Shown here: positions 31,673-63,008 of the stretch, piece after piece
How positions within the stretch are numbered: position 1 is the stretch's first letter
How the letters are laid out: the number at the start of each line of letters is the position of its first letter
Assembly (NCBI GenBank): GCA_948144175.1
Contig: CANXME010002654.1
Location: 1,860,001 to 1,924,000, forward strand
Source: Closterium sp. NIES-65
Taxonomy: Eukaryota; Streptophyta; Zygnematophyceae; Desmidiales; Closteriaceae
Direction: 5' to 3'
Length of the DNA stretch: 64,000 bases
Position numbers and translations under genes: made by a program
Notes under the pieces: generated by a model
The model's database searches: none
Seen by the model: only the letters and a program-made list of their open reading frames with translations
Told to the model about the DNA's origin: nothing

Positions 31673-32411
31673 GCTCCGTAGGCTGTTCGGCCTCCTGCAT
31701 CGCCTCGTCTTGAAGGATGTAGCTGGTGATGAAGTCCTCGTCGAGGGACTCACGCGTGCCGGGCACCATCATCATCCTCTTCATGAGGTTGTAGCCACGT
31801 GGCAGGCCCTTGGCAATGTGGGTGATGTAGGACGTCGTCGAGTATTTGGCGCCCGCCATCCGCATCTTAGCCAGGATCTATCGAGCATAGTTGCAGTAGT
31901 CCGTCGCCGACTCTTGCTCGCCCATCCGAATGTGTGTCAGCATCTCCTCCAGATGTCCGATGTACAGGTTGTCCTTGACCTGGTACGTCGACAGGATGGT
32001 GTCACAGGATCGAATTCTCAATCGAAACTTGTCAATAAAACCGAATACAAGGCCTATTTATACTCGGTAAGTACAAGGATAAACGAGATAAAACGAACCT
32101 TCAGGAACACACCCTTCCCGATACTACAATCACAAGTGCGCATAAGCACGCAAGTCTATTGGCACTCGGGATTACGCCCAGATTACGCCGTATACACCAC
32201 TGTCGGCGCTGTCGGTGCCGTATAATAGGTATGTCGGTGGGAAAAGTAGGAAATAAGAGAAATAAATAGAAGGCTCTAGGAAATAGAATAGTAGGCCGAT
32301 TGAGATGAGATAAAGACCAAAATAAAGAGGAGAAAAGGGAGAATAGGATAACAGAAAAATATAATAGTGAGAAAGTATTATAACGGGGACGTCCTCTCAC
32401 ACTTCCCCCCC

Positions 32412-36512: not shown

Positions 36513-37471
36513 TGGCGAGATCCGTTCTTTGACTTTTTGTTTTTAGTTTCGCCACTCCCACGAGCTCGGAATGCCGCACGTGCTGATTTTATGTGAAAAC
36601 GGTCGACAATCCGATGTCCGTTTCCGCCGCAAAATTCACAAATCGTTTTGTTTTTTGCAGGTCGTGAATTCGCGTCGAATTTGTCGACTTCCATGGGGTC
36701 GGCGAACGTGGTTGAAGCCGAGCGATCCCCTTGTCGTGATCGGACGACGTGGGGCCGTCGTGTTCCGGAGTTGACCAAGTCAAAACGCTCCGCGGCCGAT
36801 ACGATTTCGCTGTAGCTGCTGCAATTCGCTGCTGCAACCTAGCGCCGAATGTCGGTTTTCAGCCCCGCGATGTAGGACTGATTTTTTTCGCCCTCGGTAA
36901 TGTTGGGAATCCGATTATAAAATTCCTCCATCTGCTGCGTGTATTGCGCGACACTACGGAATTGCCTATGGTGATGTAATTTTTCGCGCGCAATATAAGT
37001 GGAATTAATCGGCTCAAAACGTTTGAGAAGGTCTCCCCGGAACTGCTGCCATGTGGCTTCGCCCTGGAAAATGCTACTGTTGCTTCCGAGCCACTCGAGA
37101 GCTGGACCGCGCATCAACGTTGTCGCGAGACGAATTTTCTCGCCGTCGTACTCCGTCGTCGACCATCCGATCGCCGCGAAATAAATTTCCATTGTCGCGA
37201 GCCACCGCCTGACGTCGGATTTTCGATCGCTAGGGTCGAACGATTCCGGCGAGCGAAGTTTCGGAACCTCGAACTGACGCTGCGACTGCTGCGAAGTCGT
37301 CGAAGCAGGAATGTTCGTAGTCGAGAGGAGTTGCGTAACGCGCTGCAGTTTGTTTCGCATCTGCTCGTTCTCCAATCGCGACCGTTCAGTCATCGCTCCC
37401 ATCTCCGCTTCCATCTTGGCGATTTGCGTGAAGAGCTGCTGCGTAACGTCGTTGGTCGCCGGTGAAACCAT
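36509..37471 (-). CDS. Chromovirus Gag region
   Basis: Begins [14 protein letters not shown] at 37471, with a predicted coiled-coil-like stretch, then a capsid-like segment ([16 protein letters not shown] ... [15 protein letters not shown]) typical of Ty3 Gag, and a C-terminal zinc-knuckle-like segment CEFCGGNGH near 36600. The region is not one continuous frame and appears broken. Confidence 0.8.
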
Positions 37472-40400
37472 CCTGTTCAGAAACCACGCGAGGGGGTTAA
37501 TTCGAAAAGCGCGGAACTGGTGCTTACCAGAAATCGGCGTCGAACTGGTCGCCCCCGGCGGTTTTTCGAGGCGATTTTTTCCGCGACCGCTGCTTAGCCA
37601 AGATTCGTCGAGTGAGAACGGCTCTGATTACCAAGTGTCACAGGATCGAATTCTCAATTGAAACTTGTCACTAAAACTGAATACAAGGCCTACATATACC
37701 CGGAAAGTACAAGGATAAACGAGATAAAACGAACCTTCAGGAACACACCCTTCCCGATACTACAATCACAAGTGCGCATAAGCACGCAAGTCTATTGGCA
37801 CTCGGGATTACGCCCAGATTACGCCGTATACACCACTGTCGGCGCTGTCGGTGCCGTATAATAGGTATGTCGGTGGGAAAAGTAGGAAATAAGAGAAATA
37901 AATAGAAGGCTCTAGGAAATAGAATAGTAGGCCGATTGAGATAAGATAAAGACCAAAATAAAGAGGAGAAAAGGGAGAATAGGATAACAGAAAAATATAA
38001 TAGTGAGAAAGTATTATAACGGGGACGTCCTCTCACAGATGGAGTGCCATGCTTGGTGACAAGCATCCATTCGCTCTCGACAGCTCCTAAGCGCCAGCTG
38101 CACCACCGGCGAGCAGCAACTCGAGATGACCATGAAGGTGAGCAAGGGAGCTGCACGAAACTCCCCACGCAACTCGACATTGGCACTGTGCCATCGGCGA
38201 AGCCCTTCAGCCCTGCGACCTCTAGCTGAGGTTCTATCGACTCCTTCCAGGTGATGAAGTCCCGTCGACCTTGCAGCGGTGCGACGGTGATCCGGTCCGG
38301 CGAGAACTTGAAGTAGCCATACGCCTGTGCAATCCCGCCCGCAGTCATATGCGTCGTCGCCGAGAGCCCTCCACTGCTTCGTAGAGGAGAGTGACGTTGA
38401 CCATCGACGTCGGCACGCGAGCTGCGTGCAGCCGCCGTAGACCGCTGCACTCGCGCCTGAATCCTGTCGACACCACCGTCGACCTTGATCACCCTTCTCT
38501 GCTTCGTGCCTTCGCTGTCGCTGACTTGTGCACCACCGTTGAGCTCTTCGTCGATGCCACCTTCGTTTCATACCGATCGACGAGATGCAGGACGGGAATG
38601 GTGTTCCGTCGGCCATTGCGACCAGATGCCCAACTCGGCGATCATCAAGGGGATCGTCCCGTACTCGCCATCCGCATGGCGTTTCCTCGCGTCAGCCAAG
38701 CGAGCCTCTAAGGTATCCGCTATGCACGCATCAGGCACCTAGCAACCCTGCACCTAGCCTGGACAACCACCAGCACAGCTTGGTCGACCGCTTGCCAGCG
38801 TTGCATAGAGGAGCCGCGCCAATACTGCTGAAGGGCGACCTGCCAACGCTGCAGGTCGACGGCGTGCCAACGCTGTGTTAAAGTTATATTTAATATATAT
38901 CCTGGTTGCTGTAGTTATTCTAGTGTATTTCATGAATTGCTTGTTTGGTGGTGCACCTTTGCTAGTTTGCTATATGTACCCTATGTGCTATAGTGAACGC
39001 AGTCATTCTCACTTACCATGGCCACAACTTTCTCGACATACGTTGGCCTAGGCTCTTTTAAGTCTAGGCCCTAAGCCTTACGTTAGATTCTTGACATGGT
39101 ATAGAGCGGTTCCTTCCTAAGGACCAATTTTTATGGGCCCACCGCTAGCCTCTTGCCATGGTGCGCCACGTTGCGCGGCCCGTAGTGTGCCTCGTGAGGG
39201 CTTTCCCCCATCCAGCCCATCACCCGCGCGATACCCGCTGCAGTAGCCTGCCGCCCGCGAGCTATCCACTTCTGCAGCGCGTCGCTCGTCGCACGTTAAC
39301 TCGTCGCCCCACATTCCGCCCGCACCCCTTCGTTGCGCTGCACTGCTGCAGCTCGTCGCTTGCGCGCTACCTACGCGGCCGTCCCGTCGCCTGTCTTGTC
39401 GCGGAGCTCATCACGACGGTCGCAGCGGATGCTATGGCGAACGCCAGCGGACCCGCTTACAAATCGTTAGCGAAATCGCCAGCAGTCCGCCAGCTTAATC
39501 GTCAGAGCGTTCACCCACGCGCCTGCGACCCCGCCGTCGGATCCGCCGACGAGCAAGCGAGCAACATCGCCAACCGACGCGCCAGACAGCTCGCCCACCG
39601 ACACGCCCGCCAGCTTTGCCACTGACGCGTTCGCCAGCTCGACGCAACAGCCGCCAGCCGCAAACGGAACCGCCAGCAGTTACAACGCCAGTGACACCGC
39701 CAGCAGAGACCCCGCCAGCACAGACCCCCGCTGGCAGAGACCTCGCCGGCAGAGACCCCGTAAGCAGAGACCCCGCCAATAGAGACCCCACCAACAGAGA
39801 CCCCGCCAGCAAAGACCCTGCCAGTAGAGACCCTGCCAGCAGAGACCCCACCAGCAGCTACACCGTCAGCAGAGACCCGCTGCAGGGACTACCGTGGGTG
39901 GGGCAGGGGTGTGGAGGAAGGAAGAGGGGGGGGGGGGAGGGGGGAGGTCCAAGGGGGCGGGTGTTGTGGGGGGTGAGGTTAAAGGGGGGTGGTTGAATGG
40001 GTGTGGGGATTTGGGGGTTACTAAGAGGGGTTTCGCCGTGCTTGGCTCCCCCCCACCTCCTCATCTCGTCACTCTCTCACCTCCCCACTTTGTAAGAGGG
40101 GGTTACTACGAGGGTTTCCCCACGGGTGGCTCTCCCTCTGTTAGAATCCAGCAGCAGTAGAAATGAATGCACTATGGAAGAGTTGGGTACAAGTATGAAA
40201 CCCTAAACGGGGTTGTACCCCATATTGGCTATCCCACTACAGCCTAAACACATATAACATGCATATACTTTGACACACCCCCACAGGCAGAGTGGGGGAG
40301 AACAAGCGGTCACAAGACCAGTCAAGAGAAGCAAAGCAAGCTTAGGGTGGATCACAACGTCACCACACACACTGAGCACAAGCAAAGGGCCACAAGGCCA

Positions 40401-43115: not shown

Positions 43116-43459
43116 TGTCAGAGGTCCACTGGTGATCCCCGATTGATCCTAGGGAAGGGTTACAAGCAGGTTGGCCTGGGGGGTTATGGGCGCACTGACT
43201 CGCTACTTAACAAGCCCTTTTATCCCAATGGTTAGTGGTTGGGATTCTGACTTGGTATCCGAGCGAAGGTCTCGGGTTCGAATCCCGGTGTATGCACTTC
43301 GGGCATCCCAGTGCGGGGGGGTGTCAGAGGTCCACTGGTGATCCCCGATTGATCCTAGGGAAGGGTTACAGGCACGTTGGCCTGGGGGGTTATGGGCGCA
43401 CTGACCCGCTACTTAACAAGCCCTTTTATCCCAATGGTCTAGTGGTTGGGATTCTGACA
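43116..43459 (+). mobile_element. Miniature LTR element A1 (344 bp) with tRNA-like Pol III promoter
   Basis: LTRs 43116-43252 and 43322-43459 (TGTCAGAGGT to ATTCTGAC[A]) flank a 69-bp interior. It contains a primer site TGGTATCCGAGC (43253-43264), a B box GGTTCGAATCC (43275-43285) and a G7 polypurine tract before the second LTR. An A-box sequence sits at the end of each LTR (about 43229-43238; TGGTCTAGTGG at 43435-43445), just downstream of a CTTTTA run. Flanking pentamers are ATCAG and GTCAG. It has no coding capacity. It lies in Copia-8 between reverse transcriptase and RNase H. Confidence 0.88.
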
Positions 43460-47132: not shown

Positions 47133-47271
47133 TGTCAGAGGTCCACTGGTGATCCCCGATTGATCCTAGGGAAGGGTTACAGGCATGTTGGCCTGGGGGG
47201 TTATGGGCGCACTTACCCGCTACACAAACAAGCCCTTTTATCCCAATGGTCTAGTGGTTGGGATTCTGACA
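47133..47271 (+). mobile_element. Solo LTR of miniature family A
   Basis: 139 bp, TGTCAGAGGT to ATTCTGACA, with exact CATGC duplications at 47128-47132 and 47272-47276. It carries the CTTTTA run and A box TGGTCTAGTGG (47247-47257). It lies in the Copia-8 gag. The solo form with duplication shows that the repeat behaves as a genuine LTR. Confidence 0.92.
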
Positions 47272-48295
47272 CATGCGTGACATATGACGCCACCGAGTAC
47301 TCGAAGCCAGCAATCTGCATGTCGGCCAAAATTCGTCGCGCTCGATTGCAGTACTCGGTCGCCGATTCCTGCTCGCCCATACGAATGGTGGCCAATTTCT
47401 TCTCCAGTTGGCTGATGTAGAGGTCGTCGGTCGCTTTGTAGGTGCGCATGATGTACTGCCACGCTTGGTAGCCGGCGTCCACACGAAGTCGGCACGGCTT
47501 TAATGCGACTTGCACCAGTGGCGAACAGCACCGCGAAAGGACCATAAAAGTCAGAAGGTGAGCAGCGCGAAATTCCGCCAACAATTCAGAGTCGTCTTCG
47601 TCCGGCATCTCCACCTTGCCGTCAACGAACTTCTTCAATCCAGCGATCTCTAGCTAGGGTTTGATTGACTCAATCCATGTGATCAAGTCATGTCGTCCTT
47701 CGAGCGGCTTCGCCACAAAGATCTTGTCCGGCGAAAATTTGAAGTAGCCGTACGCCGAAGCGATGCTTCCGTCTCGACCAGCCGACGCATGAGTCGCCGA
47801 AGTCGGCCTGGCTCCACTCCGCTGAGGAGATTAACGTCGACCATCGATGTTGCCGTTCGAGCTGCTTGCAGCCGCCGTCGACCGCAGCACTTGCGCTTGC
47901 ACTCCGCCAACGTCGACGTCAGCGACCCAAATCACTCCACGAACCCTCGTGCTTCCTTCGCCGACAACATTGCCGCCGTCACCTTCGTTGTGCACGGGTC
48001 AGGGAGAGGCGGACGCGCCGTCCGCTTCAGCACGGGGAGGGGGATGCTCACGCGCCCACTGCGCACGAGTTCCGAGGACCAAAATCTCCAAGTCCGCCTC
48101 GCCGTACCCGCCAGCCTCGTGGCGTGTCCGAACAGCATCCAACCGCGCCTGCGGAGTATCCTCTACTCCTGCATCGACTCCTTGGTCGTCCATGGCGGTC
48201 TAGGTGGTTGCCGGCCTACAAGGACTTAGGTATATAGCGAAATGTTGTCAAATCTGAAGGTTCTAACGCGGGGTCGTTCCACGCTCACCGCACCA

Positions 48296-48650
48296 TGTCC
48301 AGTTTGCTAACCAACTGGGCTAAAAGGGCATGTTTCCATAGTGGGTCAGCGCACCCATACCCACCCAGGACGACGCCTGTAGCCCTTAGGGAGACCACTT
48401 TGGGCCATTCTAGTGTCCACTTCCAACACTCCCCTCACTGGGAGGGCCCACCACTAGGGCACAGGAAGTCGCTAACAGCAGGAATCGAACCCCAGTCCTC
48501 CACGCTCACCGCACCATGTCCAGTTCACTAACCAACTGGGCTTAAAAGAGCATGTTTGTATAGCGGGTGAGCGCGCCCACGCCTCCCAAGCACCAAGGTC
48601 GTAGCCCTTCCGGCGCCAGACCAGAGGCCAATCCCAGTGTCCTTTCCACA
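48296..48650 (-). mobile_element. Miniature LTR element, family B, with tRNA-like Pol III promoter
   Basis: On the minus strand, LTRs 48517-48650 (134 bp) and 48296-48428 (133 bp) run TGTGGAAAGG or TGTTGGAAGT to AACTGGACA. The 88-bp interior has a primer site TGGTGCGGTGAGCGTGG (not initiator Met), a B box GGTTCGATTCC (48481-48491) and a GTGAGGGGAG polypurine tract. Each LTR end carries an A box (TAGCCCAGTTGG at 48311-48322; near-identical at 48532-48543) preceded by CTTTTA. A second primer site follows the left LTR (48279-48295), then the leader of Copia-8. The LTRs are more diverged from each other than in family A, so it is older. Confidence 0.8.
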
Positions 48651-49239
48651 GAGGGAACGACCCAGTGAAGCCAGCTGGGCGGCGCAGCCAGATCTCCTCA
48701 TGCAGGCTGCCCTGTAAGAAAGCAGTGCTGAAGTCAAGAGAGTGAAGCTCGTAGTCACGCTGAGCGGCAACGTGCAGCAGCACCCGAAGAGTGGTCATCT
48801 TCGGGGTGGGGGAGAAGGTCTGGAAGAAGTCTACTCCCTCTCGCTGACTGAAACCTCGAGCAACGTAACGAGCCTTGAAGACAGGCGGAGAACCTGGCGG
48901 CCGCTTCACCCTGAAAATCCACATGCCACTGACGATGTTCGCCCCAGGAGGGGGAACCTCGTCAACGTAAGTGCCTGTGGACTTCCAGGATGCCATCTCT
49001 GCGTCCATGTGTCAGAACTATATAGCTTATACTACTGTGTAGGCTATAGTGGGGTATCCCATAGGGGGTACAACACAATTAGGGTTTCCTATTTGTACTC
49101 ACTTCCTTCATAGTCATTTCATTCTCGTTCTTTGTTTTCACATGGAATCAGAGCAGGTTCCCTCCTAGGGACTGCTTCTAGGGCCCACCGAACCGCGCCC
49201 CGAGGCGCGTTTTTTTTTTTAGCGACCCGTCGTGTCGCC

Positions 49240-49930
49240 CCTAGCGGCCCGTTGCGCCGCCCTTTCCCTAGCGGCCCCGCCGCCCTTCGATCGCGGCCCC
49301 ACCGCCCTCTGCTACGCGGCCCCGCCGCCCTCTGCTACGCGGCCCCGCCGCCCTCTGCTACGCGGCCCCGCCGCCCTCTGCTACGCGGCCCCGCCGCCCT
49401 CAGCTACGCGGCCCCGCCGCCCTCTGCTACGCGGCCCTGCCGCCCTCTGCTACGCGGCCCCGCCGCCTTCTGCTACGCGGCCCCGCCGCCCTCTGCTACG
49501 CGGCCCCGCCGCCCTACGATCGCGGCCCCGCCGCCCTCTGCTACGCGGCCCCGCCGCCCTCTGCTACGCGGCCCTGCCGCCCTCTGCTACGCGGCCCCGC
49601 CGCCCTCTTCGGTCGCGGCCCCGCCGCCCCCTGCTACGCGGCCCCGCCACCCTCTACTACGCGGCACCGCCGCCCTCTGCTCCGCGGCCCCGCCGAGCCG
49701 CCCAGCAGCAGCCGAGCCGCCGCCGAGCCGCCGCCGCCTGAGCCGCCGCCCGGGCCGCCGCCGAGCCGCCGCCGCCTGAGCCGCCGAGCCGCCGCCGAGC
49801 CGCCGCCGCCTGAGCCGCCGCCCGGGCCGCCGCCGAGCCGCCGCCGCCTGAGCCGCCGAGCCGCCGCCGCCTGAGCCGCCGCCGAGCCGCCGCCCGAGCC
49901 GCCCGAGCCGCCCGAGCCGCCCGAGCCGCC
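49240..49930 (+). repeat. GC-rich tandem-repeat leader of Copia-7
   Basis: Starts with about 17 copies of a 23-bp unit (TACGCGGCCCCGCCGCCCTC plus TGC, period checked at 49331/49354), then passes into GAGCCGCCGCC-type units. It lies wholly between primer site and gag. The Ala/Pro/Arg-rich frames here are by-products. Confidence 0.9.
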
Positions 49931-50019
49931 TGAGGAGCCGTGCTGCTGTTCCTGAGCTGTGTTCCTCTACTGCTGATCTACCCGACGCTCCCAGCCCGGT
50001 GAGACTTTCAGCTGCTGCC

Positions 50020-53000
50020 ATGGCCACCCCCAATGTTCTTACTTTTGACGCTGAGGGGAGGGCCATTTACTTTGCCGTCTGGATTGAAGACCTGCAGCTG
50101 TACTTACTGTGTGATGCGATAGATGAGGTCTCTCTTTTTGACTTTGTCTCTGGCGCTGTCCCTGCCCCACCTGCTGATGCTGACTCTGCCGTTCGCTCCA
50201 AGTGGGCGACCCGCGATGCTGCTGCACGTCTTGCTGTGCGTCGCCACCTCCCTTCCTCTGAGCGTGCCCACTTTAGTCAGTGCAAGACCGCTCAGGCCTT
50301 GTACGACGCTGTAGTTGCACGCTACTCCTCCCCTTCCTCCGCTACCCTTAGCCGCCTCATGCTACCGTTTCTCTTCCCTGACCTCGCTTCCTTTCCCACT
50401 GTCGCTGACCTCGTTACCCACCTCCGTGCTAGTGACACCCGCTACCGCGCTGCCCTTCCTGCTGAGTTCCGCGCTGCGAACCCTCCTCCCATGTACATCA
50501 CCCTCTACTTTCTCGTCACCCGTCTCCCTGAGTCCCTTCGTGTCGTTCGGGACCAGTTTCTCTCTGTCTGTCCCACCACTCTCACTGTCGACCTCCTTGA
50601 GGAGTCCCTGCTAGCGGCTGAGAAGAGTATTGTCGCTGTAGGGGCCTCTCGGGGTGACCCTCGCACCCCCATCTTTGAGGGGTGTGGTCCTTCGCCCCTA
50701 CTGCCCTCTGTCGCCTCTGCCGCTGCGGCCGACCTCACTGGTTTTGAGTCGGTCGGCGCGGCGTCTGCCCCCAGCGGCAGACGCCGCTCTGGCAAGGGCA
50801 AGGGGGGCAAGGGAGCGGGTGGAGCTCGAGGGGGCGGTGGAGGAGGCGGTGGGGGTGGCGGGGGGAGTGGGGGTGGCGGTGGGGGTGGTGGCGGGAGTGG
50901 AGGTACTGGTGGCGGCGGTGGAGGCGGAGGTGGCGGCGGAGGTGGTAGCGGGGGAGGCGGTGGGAGCGGTGGGAGCGACAGTCCTGGTGGGGGAGGTGGA
51001 GGTGGAGACGGGGGTGGCGGTGGAGGCGGGGGTGGCGGTGGAGGCGGGGGTCGGAGTGGCTCGTCCCAGCGGAGCAGCTCTGGGGGTGGTCAGCGCCAGC
51101 AGCAGCAGCAGCAGCAGCCGCAGCAGCAGCCACAGCAACAGCAGCGCTCTCGCACCGTCCCCGCCCCTCAGCAGCTCCGTGAGTGGTACTCGCAGCGTCA
51201 GCGTGGTGGTGCGCTTGGTCCTTGCCCCTACGTTCTTCGCACCGGTGACCGTGCAGGGGAGCGGTGTGGAGGCGCCCACACAGCCCGCCGCTGCTTTGGC
51301 CGCCTGACTGACGCCTGGCGTCAGCAGTTTCCGGAGGCAGCTGAGATCCCCCGCTGGGGAGAGCTGTCTAGGGCTGGTGTAGCTATTTATGATCTTGATT
51401 TTGATGCTATTCTCTCTGCTATGTATGCTGCGATTGGTAGTGATGAGGATGACTGTTACCGGTGTTTCCCGCCCGACCCGGGCATTGGTACTGCCGCGTC
51501 AGGTGCTAGTGAGGCTGCTGCCCTAGGTGCCAGTGCGTCTGTGCTCTCAGGTGCTGGTGAGTCTGCCCTCTCAGGTACTGTGTCGGCTTCAGCCTCTCAC
51601 ACCTTCACCCTTGACTCTGGAGCGTCTCGCTCCTTCTTTAGGGACCGCACCACTCTCACGCCGCTGAGTCGGCCGGTTGCGGTGTCCCTGGCTGACCCCT
51701 CTGGGGGGCCTGTCCTGTCTCGCTTCTCCACTGTCCTCCCGTGTCCGGCGGCCCCCTCTGGCACCCTGTCTGGTCTCTACCTCCCCTCGTTCTCGACGAA
51801 CTTGGTGAGTGGTGCTGACCTCCAGGATGCGGGTGTCCACCAGTTCACCCCTGCTCGTCAGCGGGTGACCCACTGCACGGAGGCGGATACAGGTCGCCAC
51901 CTGGCTACGTTTACACGTCGGCCAGGGTCGAGCCTGTACACACTGACCACTGCTTCTCCTCCAGGTGCTGAGTCTGGTAGGGTCCCTTCGTCTGGTCAGG
52001 TGTTTGCTGCAGCGTCCAGGTCTGGTCCTGAGTCTGCCCCCTGCTCGTGTCGTCGTCTGTCTCACGAGACCCTCCTCTGGCACCACCGCCTTGGCCACCC
52101 CTCTCTGCTTCGGCTCAGAGGCATGGCCTCGCGAGTCCTTGTGTCTGGTCTTCCCCGGTCTCTCCCTCCCCTTCCTCCGGGCCCTGGCCCTACCTGTGTC
52201 CCCTGTGTCGAGGGGCGCCAGCGTGCTGCCCCTCACTCCTCCCAGTTTCCTCCGACAGAGGCCCCGTTGCAGACGCTTCACATGGACGTGTGGGGCCCAG
52301 CCCGCGTCCGTGGACAGGGTCAGGAGCGCTACTTCCTGCTGGTGGTTGACGACTACTCGCGTTACACCACGGTCTTCCCCTTGCGCAGCAAGGGTGAGGT
52401 CACTGCGGTGTTGATCGACTGGATCCGCGCAGCTCGTCTCCAGCTTCGGAGGAGCTTTGGCTCTGACTTCCCTGTTTTGCGTCTGCACTCGGACAGAGGC
52501 GGAGAGTTCTCCTCTGGCCTCCTGAGTGCCTACTGTCGTGCACGAGGCATCCGTCAGACCTTCACGCTTCCGGACTCACCACAGCAGAATGGGATTGCTG
52601 AGCGCCGCATTGGCATGGTCATGGACGTCGCTCGTACGTCCATGATGCATGCGGCTGCTCCCCATTTTCTGTGGCCGTTTGCGGTCAGGTATGCTGCGCA
52701 CCAGATCAACCTCCACCCCAGGGTCTCTCGCCCGGAGACCTCCCCAGCCCTGCTGTGGACGGGGAAGGTTGGCGATGCGTCGGCGTTCCGGGTCTGGGGA
52801 TCTCGGGCGTTTGTTCGCGACCTGTCTGCGGACAAGCTGTCCCCTCGTGCTTCTCCCTGCGTCTTCCTGGGGTTCCCCCCCGACGCCCCTGGGTGGCAGT
52901 TTTACCACCCCACCTCTCGGCGTGTTCTGTCCTCCCAGGACGTCACGTTCGACGAGTCGGTACCCTACTACCGCCTCTTCCCCTACCGCACTCCGTCCCT

Positions 53001-55956
53001 CCCCCCACCCCCGCTCTTCTTGGTACCAGGTCCCCCCCCGGTAGTCCCCCTCCCCCCTCAGGGTCCTGCCCCTTCAGGTGTGTCCCAGGTAGACGCGGTC
53101 GAGCCTGTCGAGGTCACTGGTGACTCTGGTGCTGCTGCGGGAGCTGAGCCTGGGGGTGCGGAGTCTGGGGGTGCTGCGCCTGGGGGTGCTGAGCCTGGGG
53201 GTGCTGAGCCTGGGGGTGCTGAGCCTGGGGGTGCTGAGCCTGGGGGTGCTGTACCTGGGGGTGCTGTGTCTGGGGGTGCTGAGCCTGGAGGTGCTGTGCC
53301 TGGGGGTGCTGAGCCTGGGGGTGCTATGCCTGGGGGTGCTTCGTCTCGCCGGGAGCCACCCTCCCCACAGGAGCTGCGTGAGTGGTTTGCCAGGCGCTGG
53401 AGGTGTGCTGCTGGTGCTGGTGGTTCTTCGGCTGCAGAGGGTACTGCTGCCTCGCGTCCCGCCGGTGCTCGTACTGTGGGTGCTGGAGCCGCTGGGTCTG
53501 AGGGTTCTCCTGGAGCTGGTACTGCTGAGGGTGTTGGCGCTGGGCCTGCCGTTGGCGGTCCGACTGACAGTGCTCCTGGTGCTGCGGCTGGAGCGTCTGG
53601 AGCAGCTGGTGACTCTGGTGCTGCTGGAGGTGCTGCTGGAGTGGGTACTCCTGCCGAGGCTGCTGGTGCTGTTCCTGCTGTTTCTAGTGTCGCCGCGCGG
53701 CCCCGACCGTACTTCGTTCCGCTCCTGCAGCAGGTTCTTGGTCTTCCGCCTCCTCCTTCTCCTCCCTTAGAGGGTCCGCAGCCTGTCCGGTCACAGCCAC
53801 AGCTACAGCCTGCCTCCCCTTTGCCTGCTCCTTCTCCCTACACTGGTCCGACTGGAGGTCTTACTGAGCGTCGTGAGCCTGCGTCTCGTCCTGTGTCGCC
53901 TGTTCGTACTGAGCGCGCTAGTGGTCGCGGGTCGCGTCAGCGTCCTCCTCCTGTCCCTGGCACGCACCGGATGTCACTGCGTCCGTCCACTGCTCCTCTG
54001 CGTGCCCCTTTGCCTTCTCCTCCTGCTTCCTCTCTTCCTGCTCTTGCCGACCCGGAGTCGGACTCTCTTCGTGCTGCCAGTCCTACTGTCATGCGTCTCC
54101 TTGCTACAGCTGTCACTGACCCTTCCTTCGAGTCGTCTGCTGCGTCTGCCCTTGTCACTGAGCTTGTCGACTTTGCTGCGCGCTGTCGTCTAGACTACGC
54201 TGCTCGTCTTGTCACTGAGTCTGAGTCCGCCTGTCCTCCGTCCGTCGGGGGTGAGTGTGCCCTTGGCACGGACGTCCTTGAGGACAGGCAGGAGGAGTTC
54301 CAGTGTCTGGCCGCCGCTTCACCTCGTCTCGCGTCTGTACTGCTAGCCCCTGAGGGAGACCCGGATGCACCAGACATCCCGACTCCGCGCTCTTACGCGG
54401 AGGCGATAGAGGGTCCCTACTCCTCTCAGTGGCAGGCAGCTATGGATGCAGAGATGGCTTCCTGGAAGTCCACAGGCACCTACGTTGACGCTGTTCCCCC
54501 TCCTGGGGCGAACATCGTCAGTGGCATGTGGATTTTCAGGGTGAAGCGGCCGCCGGGTTCTCCGCCTGTCTTCAAGGCGCGTTACGTGGCTCGTGGCTTC
54601 AGTCAGCGGCAGGGGGTTGACTACTTTCAGACCTTCTCCCCCACCCCGAAGATGACCACTCTTCGGGTTCTGCTGCACGTTGCTGCTCACCGTGACTACG
54701 AGCTGCACTCTCTCGACTTCAGCACAGCTTTCTTGCAGGGCAGCCTGCACGAGGAGATCTGGCTGCGTCGCCCACCTGGCTTCACTGGGTCTTTCCCTCC
54801 TGGTACCCAGTGGAGTCTCCGGCGTCCAGTCTACGGTCTCCGCCAGGCGCCACGTGAGTGGCACGACACACTGAGGACTACGCTCGCGGCACTTGGGTTT
54901 GCTCCTTCTACTGCCGACCCGTCGCTGTTTCTGCGCACCGACACCTCTCTGCCGCCGTTCTACATCCTCGTGTACGTCGACGACTTGGTCTTTGCCACAG
55001 CTGACACTGCTGGACTCGCCTACGTGAAGTCCGAGCTGCAGAAGAGACACACGTGCACTGACCTGGGTGAACTGCGCAGCTACCTTGGCTTGCAGATCAC
55101 CCGGGACAGAGCACGCCGCACCATTACCCTGACTCAGTCACACATGGTGCAGCAGGTCCTTCAGCGCTTCGGCTTCACGTACTCCTCGCCTCAGGCCACT
55201 CCTCTGCCTACTCGCCACTCGCTCTCAGCTCTGCCTTCGGATGAGTCCGTAGAGTCGAGTGGCCCGTATGCAGAGCTTGTTGGCTGCCTCATGTACCTGA
55301 TGACCTGCACACGACCTGACCTTGCATACCCTCTTAGCATTCTCGCACGCTATGTTGCTCCTGGGAGACACCGACCAGAGCACATGGCTGCAGCGAAGAG
55401 GGTGTTGCGCTACTTGTGCAGTACGTCGGGCATGGGGCTAGTGCTTGGAGGGCGCAGTCCAGTGGTCCTCACTGGGCACGCGGACGCTTCTTGGGCCGAC
55501 GACCAGGCTACGCAGCGGTCGTCACAGGGTTACACCTTCAGCCTTGGTTCCGGCTCTGTTTCGTGGCGGGCTACCCGCTCGTCTTCTGTTCTCGGCTCCA
55601 GTTGTGAGGCTGAGATCTACGCTGGGGCTATGGCTGCACAGGAGTTACGCTGGCTCACCTACCTGTTGACCGACCTTGGAGAGCAGCCTCGTTCTCCTCC
55701 AGTCCTGTACGTAGACAACAAGGCCATGCTGGCCTTGTGTCGAGAGCAGCGACTGGAGCACAGAACGAAGCACATTGCTCTCCGCTACTTTCTTGCTCGT
55801 GAGCTACAGCAGCGTGGACAGTTGCGACTTGCGTACGTGGCCTCTGAGGCCAACACTGCTGATGTCTTCACCAAGGCACTTGCGCCTTGTGATCATCAGC
55901 GTTGTTGCACGCAGTTGGGTCTTGTGCCTGTCTTGCCTCACTTGCTCTCCTCTTGA
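50020..55956 (+). CDS. Copia-7 Gag-Pol polyprotein
   Basis: One frame of about 1,978 residues from MATPNVLTFDAEGR (the conserved start; an in-frame ATG at 49999 adds 7). Approximate order: Gag 1-270; Gly/Ser-rich tract 270-350; Gln-rich stretch about 365-385; zinc motif C-x13-C-x3-H-x4-C about 405-430; protease LDSGASRSFF about 530; GAG-pre-integrase HHRLGHPS about 690; integrase HMDVWGP, HSDRGGEFSS, QQNGIAERR 750-860; tandem GAEPG linker about 1040-1110; reverse transcriptase from about 1475 with YVDDLVFA about 1652; RNase H ADASWADDQATQ about 1821 to the end (YVDNKAMLAL). The integrase-before-RT order is Ty1/copia. Gag and Pol share a frame, so their ratio must be set by splicing or processing, as in other plant copia. 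Confidence 0.96.
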   Translation: MATPNVLTFDAEGRAIYFAVWIEDLQLYLLCDAIDEVSLFDFVSGAVPAPPADADSAVRSKWATRDAAARLAVRRHLPSSERAHFSQCKTAQALYDAVVARYSSPSSATLSRLMLPFLFPDLASFPTVADLVTHLRASDTRYRAALPAEFRAANPPPMYITLYFLVTRLPESLRVVRDQFLSVCPTTLTVDLLEESLLAAEKSIVAVGASRGDPRTPIFEGCGPSPLLPSVASAAAADLTGFESVGAASAPSGRRRSGKGKGGKGAGGARGGGGGGGGGGGGSGGGGGGGGGSGGTGGGGGGGGGGGGGSGGGGGSGGSDSPGGGGGGGDGGGGGGGGGGGGGGRSGSSQRSSSGGGQRQQQQQQQPQQQPQQQQRSRTVPAPQQLREWYSQRQRGGALGPCPYVLRTGDRAGERCGGAHTARRCFGRLTDAWRQQFPEAAEIPRWGELSRAGVAIYDLDFDAILSAMYAAIGSDEDDCYRCFPPDPGIGTAASGASEAAALGASASVLSGAGESALSGTVSASASHTFTLDSGASRSFFRDRTTLTPLSRPVAVSLADPSGGPVLSRFSTVLPCPAAPSGTLSGLYLPSFSTNLVSGADLQDAGVHQFTPARQRVTHCTEADTGRHLATFTRRPGSSLYTLTTASPPGAESGRVPSSGQVFAAASRSGPESAPCSCRRLSHETLLWHHRLGHPSLLRLRGMASRVLVSGLPRSLPPLPPGPGPTCVPCVEGRQRAAPHSSQFPPTEAPLQTLHMDVWGPARVRGQGQERYFLLVVDDYSRYTTVFPLRSKGEVTAVLIDWIRAARLQLRRSFGSDFPVLRLHSDRGGEFSSGLLSAYCRARGIRQTFTLPDSPQQNGIAERRIGMVMDVARTSMMHAAAPHFLWPFAVRYAAHQINLHPRVSRPETSPALLWTGKVGDASAFRVWGSRAFVRDLSADKLSPRASPCVFLGFPPDAPGWQFYHPTSRRVLSSQDVTFDESVPYYRLFPYRTPSLPPPPLFLVPGPPPVVPLPPQGPAPSGVSQVDAVEPVEVTGDSGAAAGAEPGGAESGGAAPGGAEPGGAEPGGAEPGGAEPGGAVPGGAVSGGAEPGGAVPGGAEPGGAMPGGASSRREPPSPQELREWFARRWRCAAGAGGSSAAEGTAASRPAGARTVGAGAAGSEGSPGAGTAEGVGAGPAVGGPTDSAPGAAAGASGAAGDSGAAGGAAGVGTPAEAAGAVPAVSSVAARPRPYFVPLLQQVLGLPPPPSPPLEGPQPVRSQPQLQPASPLPAPSPYTGPTGGLTERREPASRPVSPVRTERASGRGSRQRPPPVPGTHRMSLRPSTAPLRAPLPSPPASSLPALADPESDSLRAASPTVMRLLATAVTDPSFESSAASALVTELVDFAARCRLDYAARLVTESESACPPSVGGECALGTDVLEDRQEEFQCLAAASPRLASVLLAPEGDPDAPDIPTPRSYAEAIEGPYSSQWQAAMDAEMASWKSTGTYVDAVPPPGANIVSGMWIFRVKRPPGSPPVFKARYVARGFSQRQGVDYFQTFSPTPKMTTLRVLLHVAAHRDYELHSLDFSTAFLQGSLHEEIWLRRPPGFTGSFPPGTQWSLRRPVYGLRQAPREWHDTLRTTLAALGFAPSTADPSLFLRTDTSLPPFYILVYVDDLVFATADTAGLAYVKSELQKRHTCTDLGELRSYLGLQITRDRARRTITLTQSHMVQQVLQRFGFTYSSPQATPLPTRHSLSALPSDESVESSGPYAELVGCLMYLMTCTRPDLAYPLSILARYVAPGRHRPEHMAAAKRVLRYLCSTSGMGLVLGGRSPVVLTGHADASWADDQATQRSSQGYTFSLGSGSVSWRATRSSSVLGSSCEAEIYAGAMAAQELRWLTYLLTDLGEQPRSPPVLYVDNKAMLALCREQRLEHRTKHIALRYFLARELQQRGQLRLAYVASEANTADVFTKALAPCDHQRCCTQLGLVPVLPHLLSS

Positions 55957-58900
55957 CCTTGCTTGTACCTTCGCCTATATATACTCTTGCTCTTGCTTGC
56001 TTGACTCTTGTATATCTCTATATATGATCTTGCATGTGAACTGGCCATGTGGCCTTGAACTTGTGCTCGGAATGTGTGGTGACTTTGTGATCCACCCTGA
56101 GCTTTGCTTTGCTTTGCTTGACTGGTCTTGTGACCCCTTGTTCTCCCCCACTTTGCCTATGGGGGTGTGTCAGAACTATATAGCTTATACTACTGTGTAG
56201 GCTATAGTGGGGTATCCCATAGGGGGTACAACACAATTAGGGTTTCCTATTTGTACTCACTTCCTTCATAGTCATTTCATCCTCGTTCTTTGTTTTCACA
56301 CCATGGCTGTTTGCCACTGAGAGGAGTACTCACCCGCGATCGCTTCAGTGTAATAGCGCGTGGTCGGGATGTCTGGAGCATCCGGGTTTCCCTCAGGGGC
56401 AAGCAGCATGGACACGAGATGAGGCGCAACGGCTGCAAGACACTCAAGGTCCTCTTGCCTGTCCTCAAGGACGTCCATGCCAAGAGCACACTCACCCCCG
56501 ACAGACGGAGGACAGACAGACTCAGACTTAGCAACTAGACTAGCGGCATAGTCTAGACGACAGGCAGCAGCAAAGTCAACAAGCTCAGTGACTAAGGCAG
56601 AAGCAGCAGCAGACTCAAACGACGGGTCAGTGACAACTGTGGCTAGCAGACGCGTGACAGTAGGGCGAGTAGTACGGGTGCGGCCAGACTTAGGCTCAGG
56701 AACAGTAGGCAGAGAAGACACATGAGGGGACGGTAGGGGAACACGCTGCGGAGTAGAGAAAGGACGACGGACTACGAGGTGGGTGCCAGGGACAGCCGGC
56801 TGACGCGAACGAGGAACACGATGACCGGAACGACCAAAACGGTCAGGCGAGACAGGACGCGACGCAGGCTCACGACGCTCAGTAAGACCCCCTGTCTGCT
56901 CAGTGTAAGGAGAAGGAGCAGGCAGCAATGAGCCAGGCTATAACGGAAGACCAGTAGACGAAGGGAGACTAAGAACTTGGCGAAGCACAGAGTCAGGCGG
57001 TGGAGAAAAGAAAAGGTGCGGCTGTGCAGTACCACCAGCACCAGCAGCTCCAGCAGCTCCAGCAGCTCCAGAACCCTCAGCGCCAGCTCCTCCAGGACCA
57101 GCTCCACCAGCAGAAGCACCCCCAGACCCAGTGTCTCCAGCAGTAGCACCCTCAGGCTGAGCACCTCTAGCCCCAGCAGCTCCAGTACCTCCAGTACGAA
57201 CACCTCTGGGACCAGCACCACTCCCAGCTCCAGGGACGTCAGCAGAAGTACCTCCAGCGGCAGAGCCCCGAGCTCCCAAAGCGCGACCCTGACGGCGACC
57301 GTACCAGTCGTGCAGCTGCTGTGAAGTGAGAGGCACACGCGGACGAAGGCGGCTACTCCAAGGAGACCGTGCAACAGTAGAATCAGAACCCTCAGCACCT
57401 CCAGAACCTCCAGCAGCTCCAGAACCTCCAGCACCAGCACCCTCAGCAGCTCCAGAACCTCCAGCTCCAGCGCCACCAGCGGCAGCACCTCCAGCAGCTC
57501 CAGAACCTCCAGCACCAGCACCCTCAGCAGCTCCAGAACCTCCAGCAGAAACAACTCCTTTAGCAGAGTCACCAGCTCCAGCGCCTCCCGCAGCAGGGCC
57601 CCTAGCTCCAGCAGCGCGACCCTGACGGCCAACGTACCACTCACGCAGCTGCTGTGGGGAGAGAGGGAGTCACCGACGAGAGTGCAGCGGCGAGGCACCA
57701 GCGGAGCTACTACGGAGATGGCTTCTCCAGGGAGACTGCTCACCAGACGCCTCAGCGCCCCCAGGTGCAGCACCCCCAGACACAGTACCCCCAGGCTCAG
57801 CACCCCCAGACTCCTCACACTCAGGCTCAGCACCTTCAGGCTCCGCACCCTCAGGCTCCGCACCCCCAGGCTCAGCACCCCCAGGCTCCGCACCCCCAGG
57901 CTCAGCACCCCCAGGCTTAGCATCCCCAGAAGCAGCACCCCGAGCAGGACCACTCTTAGCAGGACCTGAGTTACCAGTGATTTCAACCGGCATAGTCAAG
58001 GGAGGAGGGTGTACCTGAGACACACCTGAAGGAGCACGACCGGGAGCGGGGAGGGGGTCTACCTGGGGAGCACCTAGAGCGAGGAAGAGCGGCGGGGGGG
58101 GGAGAGGGGCAGTGCGGTAGGGGAAGAGACCGTAAAAGGAGACCGACTCGTCGAACGTGACGTCCTGAGATGCGGCACTAGGTGGGGTGGTAAAACTGCC
58201 AACCATGCGCGTCAGGGACAAAGCCCAGGAAGACACAGGAAACAGCGCGGGAAGAGAGCTTGTCCGCGGTGGTATCACGGACAAAGGCACGAGCACCCCA
58301 GACCCGGAAACACGACGCATCACCAACCTTGCCCGTCCACAGTAGTGTGGGCGAGGTCTCCGGCAAGGAGACACAGGGCCAGAGGTTGAGCTGATGCGCG
58401 GCGTAGCGGACCGCAAACGGCCATAGAAAATGGGGGGCAGCCGCATGGATCATGGAGGTACGAGCGACCTCCATGACTAAGCCAATGCGGCACTCAGCAA
58501 CCCGATTCTTCTGCGGAGAGGCCGGAAGCGTGAACATCTGGTGGATGCCGTGCTCCGCACAGAAGGCTGCCAAGAGGTCTGAGGAGAACTCACCACCTCT
58601 GTCAGAGTGCAGACTCAGGACAGGAAAGTCCGTCCCGAACCGCTCGCGGAGCTGGAGACGAACAGCGCAGATCCAAGGGATCAAAACATCAGGGACCTCC
58701 CCCTTGCGCTGCAAGGGGAAGACCGTGGTGTAACGCGAGTAGTCGTCGACGACCAGCAGGAAGTACCGCTCGTGGCCCTGTCCACGGACGCGGGCTGGGC
58801 CCCACACGTCTAGGTGGAGAGTCTGCAGGGGAGCCTCTGTGGGAGGGAACGAGGAGGAGTGAGGAGCGGCGCGCTGCCGCTTCTCGACACAGGGAAGACA

Positions 58901-60329
58901 GGGAGGAGCAGGCGAGGGTGGGAGAGGAGGGAGAACCCTGGGAAGACCAGAGACAAGAAGACGGCGGTGCATGGTACGAAGGCGCTGCACCGAGGGGTGA
59001 CCAAGGCGGTGATGCCAAAGGAGGGTCTGGTGCGACAAGGCGCGACACGAGCAGGGGGCCGCTAGACCTGACGTAAACGCAGACGCAGCTACCTGAGGGG
59101 ACTCAGTGGTCAGTGTGTACAGGCCCGACCCCAGCTGCCGAGTGAAGGTAGCCAAGTGACGACCTGTCTGAGCACACGTGCTGTGTGTCACACGCTCGTA
59201 GGCAGGGGTGAACTGGTGAACACCCGCGTCCTGGAGCGTAGAACCCGCCACCAAGTTCGTCGAGAACGAGGGGAGGTAAAGACCCGACAGTGTGCCGGAC
59301 GGGACAGCAGGACAAGGGAGGACAGTGGTGGAGGTCGCACAGACTGGACCCCCAGAGGGGTCTGCCAGGGAGACTGCAACCGGCCGACTGAGAGGCGTGA
59401 GGGTGGTGCTGTCGCGAAAGAAGGAGCGAGAAGCACCGTAGTCAAGTGTGAAGGTGTACAAGGCCTCAGAAGGCGCAGTACCAGAGAGAGCAGACTCACC
59501 AGCACCTGGAGAAGCAGCCTCACCAGCACCCAGTGCAGGAGACGCAATAGCACCTAGAGCAGCAGCCTCACCAGCACCTAGAGCAGGAGACGCACAAGCA
59601 CCTAGATCAGCAGCCTCACCAGCACCGAGAGGCGGTACGCACAAGTAACAGGCACGGTCAGCACTAGTAGGCAATGCATACATGGCAGTGAGAATAGCAT
59701 CATAGTCAAGAGCAAATATATCTACCCTCTGCCCAAGCAGCTCCTCTGAGTCGGGGAGCTCAGCCTCGTCGCCAAACTCGGTACTCCAGGCGTCGCTCAG
59801 ACGGGCGAAGCAGCGGGACTGTGTGTGACTAAGCGTCCCGCAAGCCTGACCATTCCGATCACCTGTGCGAATGACGTACGGGCAGCGAACGGTACTCAAA
59901 GACCCTGTACTCTGAGCGTACCACTCAAGAAGCTGCTAAGGCGTAAATGTCTCGCCCGGACGCCGCTGCAGCTGCAGCTGGCCACTGCCAGTCGCTCCCG
60001 ACTGACCAGCTCCAAGGCGACAGCCACGACGGCTACCGCCACAACCCCAACTAGCGTACCACTCACGAAGCTGCTGAGGCATGAGAGACTCGCGCGGACG
60101 TTGTTGGAGCTGCATCTGGCCATCGCCAGCAGCAGCAGTAGCAGTAGTAGCTGCTGCAGCGCGGGCAGGGCAGGCGCGGCAGGCAGGTAGGGAGGCAGGC
60201 AGGCAGGCGTGCAGGCACGCAGGCAGAGGGCACGGCAGTGCGCGAACAAGGTAGGTGCTCACCAGTGGCGGGAAGGGCCGGCGCTCGGCAGGCGGCGGCA
60301 AGGTAGGCGCACGACGGCGGCGACGGCGA

Positions 60330-61703
60330 GGCCGCGGCAGCTGCAGGGTGGGGCCGCGTCAGCGGCAGGTCGGAGCTGCGTTAGCTGCAGGGCTGGCGGG
60401 GCCGCGTCGGCGTCCAGGCGGGGCCGCGTCGGCGGCAGGGCGCGGCCGCGTCAGAGGCAGGGCGGGGCCGCGTCGGCTGCAGGGCGCGGCCGCGTCAGAG
60501 GCAGGGCGCGGCCGCGTCAGAAGCAGGGCGCAGCTGCGTCGGTTGCAGGGCGCGGCCGCGTCAGAGGCAGGGCGCGGCCGCGTCAGAGGCAGGGCGGGGC
60601 CGCGTTGACTGCAGGGCGCGGCCGCGTCGATTGCAGGGCGCGGCCATGTCGAAGGCAGGGCGCGGTCGTGTCAGAGGCAGGGCGGTGCCGCGTCGGCTGC
60701 AGGGCGCGGCCGCGTTGAAGGCAGGGCAGGGCCGTGTCGACTGCACGGCGCGGCCACGTCGAAGGCAGGGCGCGGCCGCGTCAGAGGCTGGGCGCAGCCG
60801 CGTCAAAGGCAGGGCGGGGCTGCGTCGCCTGCACGGCGCGGCCGCGTCGATTGCAGGGCGCGGCCGCGTCGAAGGCAAGGCGCGGCCGCGTCAGAGGCTT
60901 GGCGCGGCCGGGTCAGAGGCAGGGCGGGGCTGCGTCGGCAGCAGGGCGCGGCTGCGTCGAAGGCAAGGCAGGGCCGCGTTGACTGCAGGGCGTGGCCGCG
61001 TCGAAGGCAGGGCGCGGCCGCGTCAGAGGCTGGGCGCGGCCACGTCAAAGGCAGGGCGGGGCCGCGTCGGCTGCAAGGCGCGGCCGCGACAGAGGCAGGG
61101 CGCGGCCACGTCAGAGGCAGGGCGGGGCCGCGCCGACTGCAGGGCGCGGCCGCGTCGATTGCAGGGCGCGGCCGCATTGAAGGCAGGGCGCGGCCGCGTC
61201 AGAGGTTGGGCGCGGCCGCGTCAGAGGCAGGGCGGGGCCGCGTCGGCTGCAGGGCGCGGCCGCGTCGAAGGCAGGGGGGGGGGCGCATCGACTGCAGGGC
61301 GCGGTCGCGTCGAAGGCTGGGCGCGGCCGTGTCAGAGGCTGGGTGCGGCCGCGTCAAAGGCAGGGCGGGGCCGCGTCGGCTGCAGGGCGCGGCCGCGTCA
61401 GAGGCAGGGCGCGGCCGCGTCAGAGGCAGGGCGGGGCCGCGTCGGCTGCAGGGCGCGGTCGCGTAGAATGCAGGGCGGGGCCGCGTCAGAGGCTGGGCGC
61501 GGCCGCGTCAGAGGAAGGGCGCGGCCGCGTTTTGGCCTAACGGGCCTGCAGGGGTGGCTCGCGGGCCTGACGGGCCTGTAGGGGCGGCTCGTGGGTCTGA
61601 CGGGCCTGTAGGGGCGGCGCGTGAGCCTTACGAGCCTGCAGGGGTGGTGCGCGGGCCTTACGGGCCTGCAGGGGCGGCGCGCTGGCCTAGGGCAGCAGGA
61701 GGC
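60330..61703 (-). repeat. GC-rich tandem-repeat leader of Copia-6
   Basis: More than 1.2 kb of 20-22 bp units around GCAGGGCGCGGCCGCGTCAGAG, dense in GCGGCCGC, then about 30-bp GGGCCTGACGGGCCTG units (61540-61690). It lies between the primer site and gag on the element's strand. The Arg/Ala/Gly-rich frames on both strands are by-products. Confidence 0.9.
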
Positions 61704-62312
61704 TGTCAGAATCCCAACCACTAGACCATTGGGATAAAAGGGCTTGTTTCAGTAGTGGGTGAGTGCGCCCATAACCCCCCAGGCGAACGCGCCTGTAACC
61801 CTCTCCAGGATCAATCGGGCATCCACAGTGCAGATCTACTGACACCCCCCCACACTGGGAGGCCCAGGACTAAGCACAGCGGCAACGGCCTACATGTGCA
61901 TACACCGGGAATCGAACCCGAGACCGCTCTGATACCATGTCAAAATCCCAACCACTAGACCATTGGGATAAAAGGGCTTGTTTTAGTAGCGGGTGAGTGC
62001 GCCCATAACCCCCCAGGCGAACGCGCCTGTAACCCTCTCCAGGATCAATCGGGCATCCACAGTGCAGATCTACTGACACCCCCCCACACTGGGAGGCCCA
62101 GGACTAAGCACAGCGGCAACGGCCTACATGTGCATACACCGAGAATCGAACCCGAGACCGCTCTGATACCATGTCAGAATCCCAACCACTAGACCATTGG
62201 GATAATAGGGCTTGTTTCAGTAGCGGGTCAGTGCGCCCATAACCCCCCAGGCGAACGCGCCTGTAACCCTCTCCAGGATCAATCGGGCATCCACAGTGCA
62301 GATCTACTGACA
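61704..62312 (-). mobile_element. Miniature LTR family A, tandem form (LTR-interior-LTR-interior-LTR)
   Basis: Three 141-bp LTRs (61704-61844, 61938-62078, 62172-62312) and two 93-bp interiors (61845-61937, 62079-62171) are nearly identical among themselves and are flanked by one GAGGC pair (61699-61703 and 62313-62317). Each interior has primer site TGGTATCAGAGC, an overlapping tRNA-like T-arm with a B box (61908-61918; 62142-62152) and a GTGTGGGGGGG polypurine tract. Each LTR ends with A box TGGTCTAGTGG (minus strand; 61718-61728, 61952-61962, 62186-62196). It lies in the Copia-6 leader. Confidence 0.92.
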
Positions 62313-63008
62313 GAGGCAGCGCGAGGGCTGCAGGACGGCGAGCGCAGTGCAGCACGTCACAAGGCAGGGCAGGCAGGCAGGCGCAGGATAACACGTGGGG
62401 TAGCGCGGTAACTGCAACGGTAGGTGGGCCCGAAAAGGAAGACGGTCCTACAGACGTAATGCTCTGAAACCATGTTAGAATCTAGCAGCAGTAGGAATGA
62501 ATGCTCTGTGGAAGAGTTGGGTACAAGTATGAAACCCTAAACGGGGATGTACCCCATATTGGCTACCCCATTACAGCCTACACACATATAACATGCATAT
62601 ACTTTGACACCCTCAACTCCTCGCCTCATCCCTCTCTCACCTCCTTCTTCGTACTTCTCCCCTCTCCTCTCCTCTCTCCCTCTCGCCTCCTCCTCCTCAT
62701 TTAACTCTGCCGTCTTCCATTGCGCCAGGTGTACCCCTTCAGGGAGTGTTTTCTGCACTACTTATTCCTACAAGCAGGCTAAGGGGGTGTGTTAAAGTTG
62801 TATTTAATATCTATCCTGCTTGTTGTAGTTATTGTAGTGTAGTTCATTAATTGCTTGTTTGGTGGTGCACCTTTGCTTGTTTGCTATATGTACCTTTTGT
62901 GCCATAGTGAACCCAATCATTCTCACTTACCTTGGCCACAACTCTCTCGACATACATTGGCCTAGGCTCTTAAGCCTAGGCCCTAAACCTTACGTTAGAT
63001 TCTTGACA

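Follow-up and report, generated by a model that had tools for sequence, protein, structure and literature searches.

Miniature LTR elements of Closterium with tRNA-type A and B boxes divided by the LTR/interior junction, and their probable transcription by Pol III

TRIM loci in the window and their genomic copies

The window, meaning the whole 64-kb stretch of Closterium sp. NIES-65 DNA analysed here, contains a miniature LTR element (TRIM) array of family A on the minus strand at 61704–62312. The array has the order LTR-interior-LTR-interior-LTR, with three 141-bp LTRs and two 93-bp interiors. The LTR termini are TGTCAG...CTGACA, and a perfect 5-bp target duplication, GAGGC, brackets the array (plus strand, 61699–61703 on the left and 62313–62317 on the right). 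Read along the minus strand, the 5′ LTR (62172–62312) is followed by interior 1 (62079–62171), the middle LTR (61938–62078), interior 2 (61845–61937) and the 3′ LTR (61704–61844). Each interior begins with the primer site (PBS) TGGTATCAGAGC (unit 1, 62160–62171; unit 2, 61926–61937), which we take to correspond to the 3′ end of initiator tRNA-Met (iMet), and ends with a G tract, the polypurine tract (PPT; GGGGGGG at 61845–61851 in unit 2).

Both units of the array have the exact A box TGGTCTAGTGG (62186–62196 and 61952–61962, minus strand). The B box is exact in unit 2 (GGTTCGATTCC, 61908–61918) and has one mismatch in unit 1 (GGTTCGATTCT, 62142–62152). The 3′ LTR has an A box, with no B box after it. 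A TTTT adjoins the A box upstream in the middle LTR (61970–61973), and the 3′ LTR has its own (61736–61739); these are putative Pol III terminators for units 1 and 2, respectively. Neither unit is clean, because unit 1 has the damaged B box and a damaged TTTT in its 5′ LTR (mutated to TATT), and unit 2 has a TTTT between its A and B boxes, made by mutation where GATTTTGACA replaces GATTCTGACA in the middle LTR. A long GC-rich minisatellite with a 22-bp unit (60300–61530) adjoins the array.

Two further family A loci and a related family, B, are found in the window. A copy of a short-interior subfamily of A lies at 43116–43459 (plus strand), with a first LTR (43116–43252), a 69-bp interior (43253–43321; B box at 43275–43285) and a second LTR (43322–43459); its flanks, ATCAG and GTCAG, agree in four of five positions. 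The other is a solo LTR (47133–47271, plus strand) with CATGC on both sides, which has an A box and no B box. Family B is represented by a minus-strand copy at 48296–48650 (LTR 48517–48650, interior 48429–48516, LTR 48296–48428), at whose flanks a target duplication was looked for and none could be demonstrated. Its layout is that of family A, but the primer site (48499–48516) differs: its 18 nt are the complement of the 3′ end of what is presumably tRNA-Phe. The B box is again GGTTCGATTCC (48481–48491), the A box at the junction is AAGCCCAGTTGG, with one mismatch (48532–48543), and that of the other LTR is TAGCCCAGTTGG (48311–48322), all on the minus strand. The LTRs of the two families are partly alike (81% over 74 positions), and the interiors align best in the B-box stretch and the PPT. 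Both families have the make-up of TRIMs: two short LTRs, PBS, PPT, a length below 1 kb, no coding sequence, and LTR/interior/LTR sizes of 141/93/141 bp in A and 134/88/133 bp in B. A second contig (C741:1801265–1815868) holds a near-identical family A array, short-interior copy and family B copy, with matching flanks where compared, and is probably the other haplotype of this region.

Genome searches gave 727 first-look candidates for family A (best 40 scored, 81 matches; loci L001–L030, L001 being the array at 61704–62312), 342 for family B (40 scored, 47 matches; L031–L060) and 11 for the short-interior subfamily (all scored; L061–L078). Loci with identical flanks, some of them probably haplotypes, were counted once. 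For family A, the 30 best-matching loci represent 21 distinct insertions, 18 of them with perfect 5-bp duplications; two of the 21 are arrays, with three and six LTRs. The larger array (L003) consists of six LTRs and five interiors and has 5-bp target duplications on either side. Perfect duplications were also found in four of five distinct insertions of the short-interior subfamily. In family B, 12 of the 30 loci had two full LTRs and reduced to eight distinct flank pairs, six with a perfect 5-bp duplication; in three of the six the flanks are repetitive. On one 163-kb contig (C2364), five family B loci (L037, L038, L042, L044, L050) show copies followed by a ATAGGCGCC-type repeat. A scan of viral contigs for the TRIM LTR end gave 0 matches. 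A cellular LRR gene had its best hits in Closterium.

The A and B boxes and their conservation

In family A, the A box starts at LTR position 117 of 141 and the B box at interior position 20, with 33 nt between them. Re-scoring of the sequence agreed with the preliminary description of this DNA in coordinates, motifs and the 33-nt spacing of the tRNA-like boxes. The patterns scored were TRGYNNARNGG and GGTTCGANTCC, which we take as the A-box and B-box consensus. The LTR edge is certain, since the solo LTR, which has a target duplication to itself, stops short of the primer site, and the perfect 5-bp duplications of the other insertions also fix it; the two boxes therefore lie on opposite sides of the LTR boundary. 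That these are miniature LTR elements whose boxes straddle the LTR/primer-site junction was borne out by many copies with target duplications and by the second family with a different primer. The elements are thus a real multi-copy group of TRIMs, in two families, with tRNA-type boxes divided by this junction.

Exact B boxes occur three times in the window, always within TRIM interiors; in 200 dinucleotide shuffles of the window their mean number was 0.175 and the maximum 3. One exact A+B pair was found in the window and none in the 200 shuffles, and a looser pair occurred twice, compared with a shuffle mean of 0.01. In 5000 shuffles of one LTR plus interior, no B box arose in the interior. 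The four complete TRIM junctions of the window have 0–1 mismatches to each box, and a fifth, cut off behind the primer site, has three B-box mismatches. Full-size-type elements contribute five junctions to the window (one copia and one gypsy with confirming coding sequence, three called copia by LTR and primer-site likeness); there the best matches had 4–5 mismatches to the B box and 2–4 to the A box.

The stretch upstream of the A box is also patterned. TTTT stands right upstream of the A box in seven of the eight window LTRs, covering both families, and the only other T4 in the window TRIM copies arose by mutation. Just upstream of the A-box region, family A has CAAG and family B has CATG; CAA is described as a start signal in plant tRNA genes (PMC11700998). 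The preliminary description held that these LTRs have no TATA box. This is correct for the six family A LTRs of the window, but one of the two family B LTRs does have one.

A tRNA gene or cloverleaf was rejected as the identity of the stretch. ARAGORN (bacterial code) found 0 tRNAs in the window, and Rfam gave no tRNA-family match for the elements and no match of any kind at gathering score in the window; the T-arm alone was listed, as a weak tmRNA match.

Box integrity was scored in 18 best-matching two-LTR family A copies, that is, the 21 distinct flank pairs minus the two arrays and one locus (L009) with one LTR found. At the 5′ junction the A box fits the consensus in 18/18, and the B box is exact in 16/18. 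The primer site and the G tract are intact in all 18, and TTTT precedes the A box in 16/18 5′ LTRs and 16/18 3′ LTRs. Among 23 distinct family B junctions, the A box matches the consensus in 13 and the B box is exact in 8, which indicates that most family B copies are old. Some loci of family A subfamilies (L061, L062, L066, L068) have a shortened A box, TGGTTAGTGG.

When family A subfamilies were compared, the 44 aligned positions that run from CAA to the end of the LTR were all identical, whereas the upstream LTR differed at 17/98 positions for the solo LTR (p = 0.0015) and at 16/98 in the other subfamily comparison (p = 0.003). This conservation is not specific to the A box, because the LTR end also serves integration and can form a hairpin. 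TRIM sequence has also been read into many predicted proteins of Closterium NIES-53 and NIES-54 (P0121–P0254), where it will mislead annotation; 131 of 134 such proteins contained 165 TRIM matches. In these translated copies, B-box codons were kept at 0.944 vs 0.86 for other interior codons, and A-box codons at 0.827 vs 0.865 for other LTR codons, with the codon of the last A-box G changed in 25/134. The lowest score, 0.587 for primer-site codons, probably reflects breaks of the gene models at that point. TRIM peptide matches were all from NIES-53/54 (31/31 in one search, and the best 120 of 128 in another); this is uninformative on other strains, since NIES-65 DNA itself gave the 727 first-look candidates. 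In the 18 young family A copies, differences per site were few: 0.010 in the A box vs 0.025 and 0.013 in the rest of the LTRs, and 0.010 in the B box vs 0.014 in the rest of the interior. Boxes better conserved than their surroundings were thus found between subfamilies and, for the B box, in translated copies, but not for the A box in translated copies. As to constraint across copies, young family A holds too few changes, and old family B many damaged boxes.

These conservation data bear on the reading that the elements are ordinary Pol II TRIMs and that their tRNA-like boxes have no function today, being left over, for instance, from a SINE or a piece of tRNA taken up at the junction. In its favour, A-box codons are no better kept than their neighbours, boxes are degraded in family B copies, and the B-box stretch also turns up where a copia-type LTR lacking an A box adjoins the interior (L070, L071; see below). 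However, those two look like single chimeras and not like a separate expanded family. Both boxes stay near consensus in two families despite different primer sites and different A-box letters, the six family A LTRs of the window lack a TATA box, and the terminator-like TTTT keeps one fixed place. On balance, we regard relic boxes as unlikely.

Far less probable is a second reading, in which the tRNA-like stretch acts as RNA structure, as a tRNA mimic for packaging or primer annealing, and not as a promoter. A hairpin around the A box persists although its letters differ (ATCCCAAT/GTTGGGAT in A1, CCAGTT/AACTGG in B), a ATCCCAGT/GCTGGGAT hairpin in L065 is a paired change, codons 38 and 42 covary (Fisher p = 8e-5, a statistic that ignores kinship), and the family A T-arm can pair. 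Paired changes preserve the hairpin, so more than a single constraint may act on the LTR end. The stretch does not, however, adopt a tRNA fold: its 5′ half pairs internally instead of forming a D arm, and family B drops most T-stem pairs yet retains the B-box letters, as judged by eye. The short hairpins alone reached z values of −1.15 to −1.98, but the joined stretches of 81 and 75 nt fold like shuffles (z 0.44 and 0.63), and a tRNA mimic was rejected as an identity.

Traces of reverse transcription

Behind the window's family B copy, at 48252–48295 (minus strand), lies the 3′ part of a tRNA-Phe in antisense, 36/39 matched with a 5-nt insertion and ending before nt 37. In its part beyond the primer site, 9/1000 shuffles scored as well. 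A second tail, at L058:1462–1500 (minus strand), is matched at 38/39 with 0/1000 shuffles as good, and its sole mismatch is base 58. In both family B tails base 58 is changed, and both stop after base 38, just before 37. Among the 24 loci listed, such tails occur in L031, L032 and L058, which represent two distinct insertions, L031 being the window copy and L032 likely its other haplotype; L052–L054 have 13 nt of primer site, and the remaining loci have no tail. An Rfam search of the captured tRNA part (L058/L031) returned no tRNA match up to E 0.5.

Base 58 is reported as m1A in retroviral primer tRNAs and as the normal stop point of plus-strand DNA, and base 37 of mammalian tRNA-Phe as wybutosine (PMC13191261). 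If, as we infer, Closterium tRNA-Phe is modified like those tRNAs, the tails are likely the trace of a reverse transcriptase copying its own modified primer. The antisense tails point to tRNA-Phe as the primer of family B.

Capture of this kind raises the question of whether the B box is its by-product, a tRNA T-arm left by reverse transcription past the primer site. Family B insertions show that primer capture does occur, but it leaves antisense sequence (GGATCGAAC or GGAACGAAC), whereas the B box reads in sense, and primer capture was rejected as the B-box source for this wrong orientation. The same B-box consensus moreover accompanies both iMet and Phe primer sites and lies 7–10 nt beyond the complementary stretch. 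This origin of the B box is hardly credible, and least so of the readings weighed here.

A different trace is found in family A. At L071:1370–1600, a copia-type LTR is joined exactly at the primer site to a family A TRIM interior; about 21 nt of TRIM LTR come next, and after these sequence similar to the window's copia ORF. GACAC precedes the copia-type LTR and recurs behind the matching 3′ LTR (L083) about 13.6 kb on; the chimera is known from a 3-kb locus plus this 3′ LTR end. The LTR was assigned to copia type from six fetched stretches, two of which (L080, L081) are 5′ LTRs that continue into a primer site of their own. A further junction of a copia-type LTR with a TRIM interior, L070, is less certain. 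The L071 junction would result if plus-strand strong-stop DNA jumped at the primer site, and such a jump would place TRIM RNA and copia enzyme in one particle. The proposal that the elements are reverse-transcribed in trans by a copia enzyme gains some support from this chimera and the GACAC on both sides; the window's chromodomain gypsy element likewise makes 5-bp duplications. Together, the sequence traces document the tRNA-primed reverse transcription with outside enzymes that characterizes TRIMs.

The window's copia element (49010–56300, plus strand) has one open frame of 2034 aa, flanks CCATG, the primer site TGGAATCAGAGC, and LTRs of about 133 bp that are 99% alike. The chromodomain gypsy element (31999–38037, minus strand) has LTRs of 403 bp, 98% alike, and flanks CCATC, and is similar to TRIM family A in its LTR ends (TGTGAGAGG...TGTGACA). 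A repeated unit in L052–L054, L058 and L060 (about 525–1725 in element orientation) has about 975 nt of unassigned sequence joined exactly at the Phe primer site; with the family B interior and LTR to which it is joined, it is a possible helper-derived chimera.

Proposed transcription and comparison with known systems

The best explanation, to which we give a probability of about 70%, is that these are non-autonomous TRIMs with a type-2 (tRNA-type) Pol III promoter spanning the LTR/interior junction. Pol III transcription is here deduced from sequence. TFIIIC would bind both boxes, one close to the end of the LTR (A) and the other a little beyond the primer site (B). Pol III would start near the CAA, about 10 nt ahead of the tRNA-like start, read through the interior into the next LTR and stop at the TTTT directly upstream of that LTR's A box. 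The resulting R repeat would be about 10 nt and U5 about 32 nt, so that the entire promoter would lie at the 5′ end of the RNA. Since CAA, TTTT and A box follow one another in this order, one short LTR stretch could hold both the start and the end of a Pol III transcript. According to the sequence traces, the RNA is an LTR-type template primed by a cellular tRNA (Phe in family B; in family A, by primer-site match, iMet), and the enzymes act in trans, those of copia in at least one event of family A.

Because both boxes come together only at a complete LTR-interior junction, 3′ LTRs and solo LTRs should not fire. The primer site would lie in a tolerant spacer between the boxes and would thus be exchangeable without loss of the promoter. 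The split may even be a working design, which combines a very short U5, silent 3′ and solo LTRs, a separate transcription unit for each unit of an array, and an exchangeable primer-site cassette (iMet in A, Phe in B); we put this forward tentatively, at somewhat less than even odds.

Among known elements, Cassandra is a plant TRIM, with the family A primer site TGGTATCAGAGC in its published search pattern (PMC7215508). It also has a Pol III promoter and forms short arrays of about three LTRs, but its promoter is of the 5S type and lies inside the LTR (PMC7215508, PMC10853983). The published 5S motif occurs 7 times in the window, vs 6.84 expected, and is absent from 61704–62312, and Rfam gave no 5S match for the TRIM sequence searched; membership in Cassandra was therefore rejected. 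The name TRIMp3 has been proposed for TRIMs with Pol III promoters, of which Cassandra is called the sole validated one, and how a TRIM stays dependent on its helper is called unknown (PMC10886601, section 4.2 for the latter). In Closterium, the copia-TRIM chimera and the tails left by primer capture record directly which element mobilised a TRIM, and with which tRNA. In tRNA-derived SINEs (SINE2), a short RNA with a tRNA-like head is found as in the Closterium TRIMs (PMC10886601), which differ in their LTRs, PBS, PPT and 5-bp target duplications, in contrast to target-primed insertion.

The closest described elements are the Helenus TRIMs (Kojima 2024, PMC10886601), which have tRNA-derived A and B boxes and for which Pol III transcription was proposed. 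They share with the Closterium TRIMs the tRNA-type boxes, PBS, PPT and 5-bp target duplications. Helenus is reported from fungi and plants, with tandem arrays in one family and mobilisation by copia in fungi; its single plant family, Helenus-1_SMo of Selaginella (LTR 120 bp, interior 85 bp), is near the Closterium TRIMs in size, and the list of families given there contains no algae (PMC10886601). Helenus is, however, described with the tRNA-like sequence in its LTRs (PMC10886601). In Closterium the LTR contributes the A box alone, and the B box follows the PBS in the interior. The Closterium elements thus have A and B boxes in a TRIM as Helenus does, but not both boxes inside the LTR, as the solo LTR at 47133–47271 ends before the B box.

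The preliminary description knew of no LTR element with a tRNA-type promoter split by the LTR boundary. The split itself seems undescribed, but TRIMs with tRNA-type boxes had been published as Helenus (PMC10886601). The main text of Gao 2016 on plant TRIMs makes no mention of tRNA, promoter or Pol III, and neither the split-promoter form nor Closterium TRIMs are described in the titles and opening parts of abstracts found in the open-licence PMC literature. What seems new is therefore the split promoter, the algal host and the evidence on the helper, and TRIMs with tRNA-type boxes were already known. If our reading is true, an LTR element driven by Pol III can be built in a second way, in which copies must be complete to have the promoter, and TRIMs with tRNA-type boxes extend to Zygnematophyceae, the algal class closest to land plants (PMC9915684).
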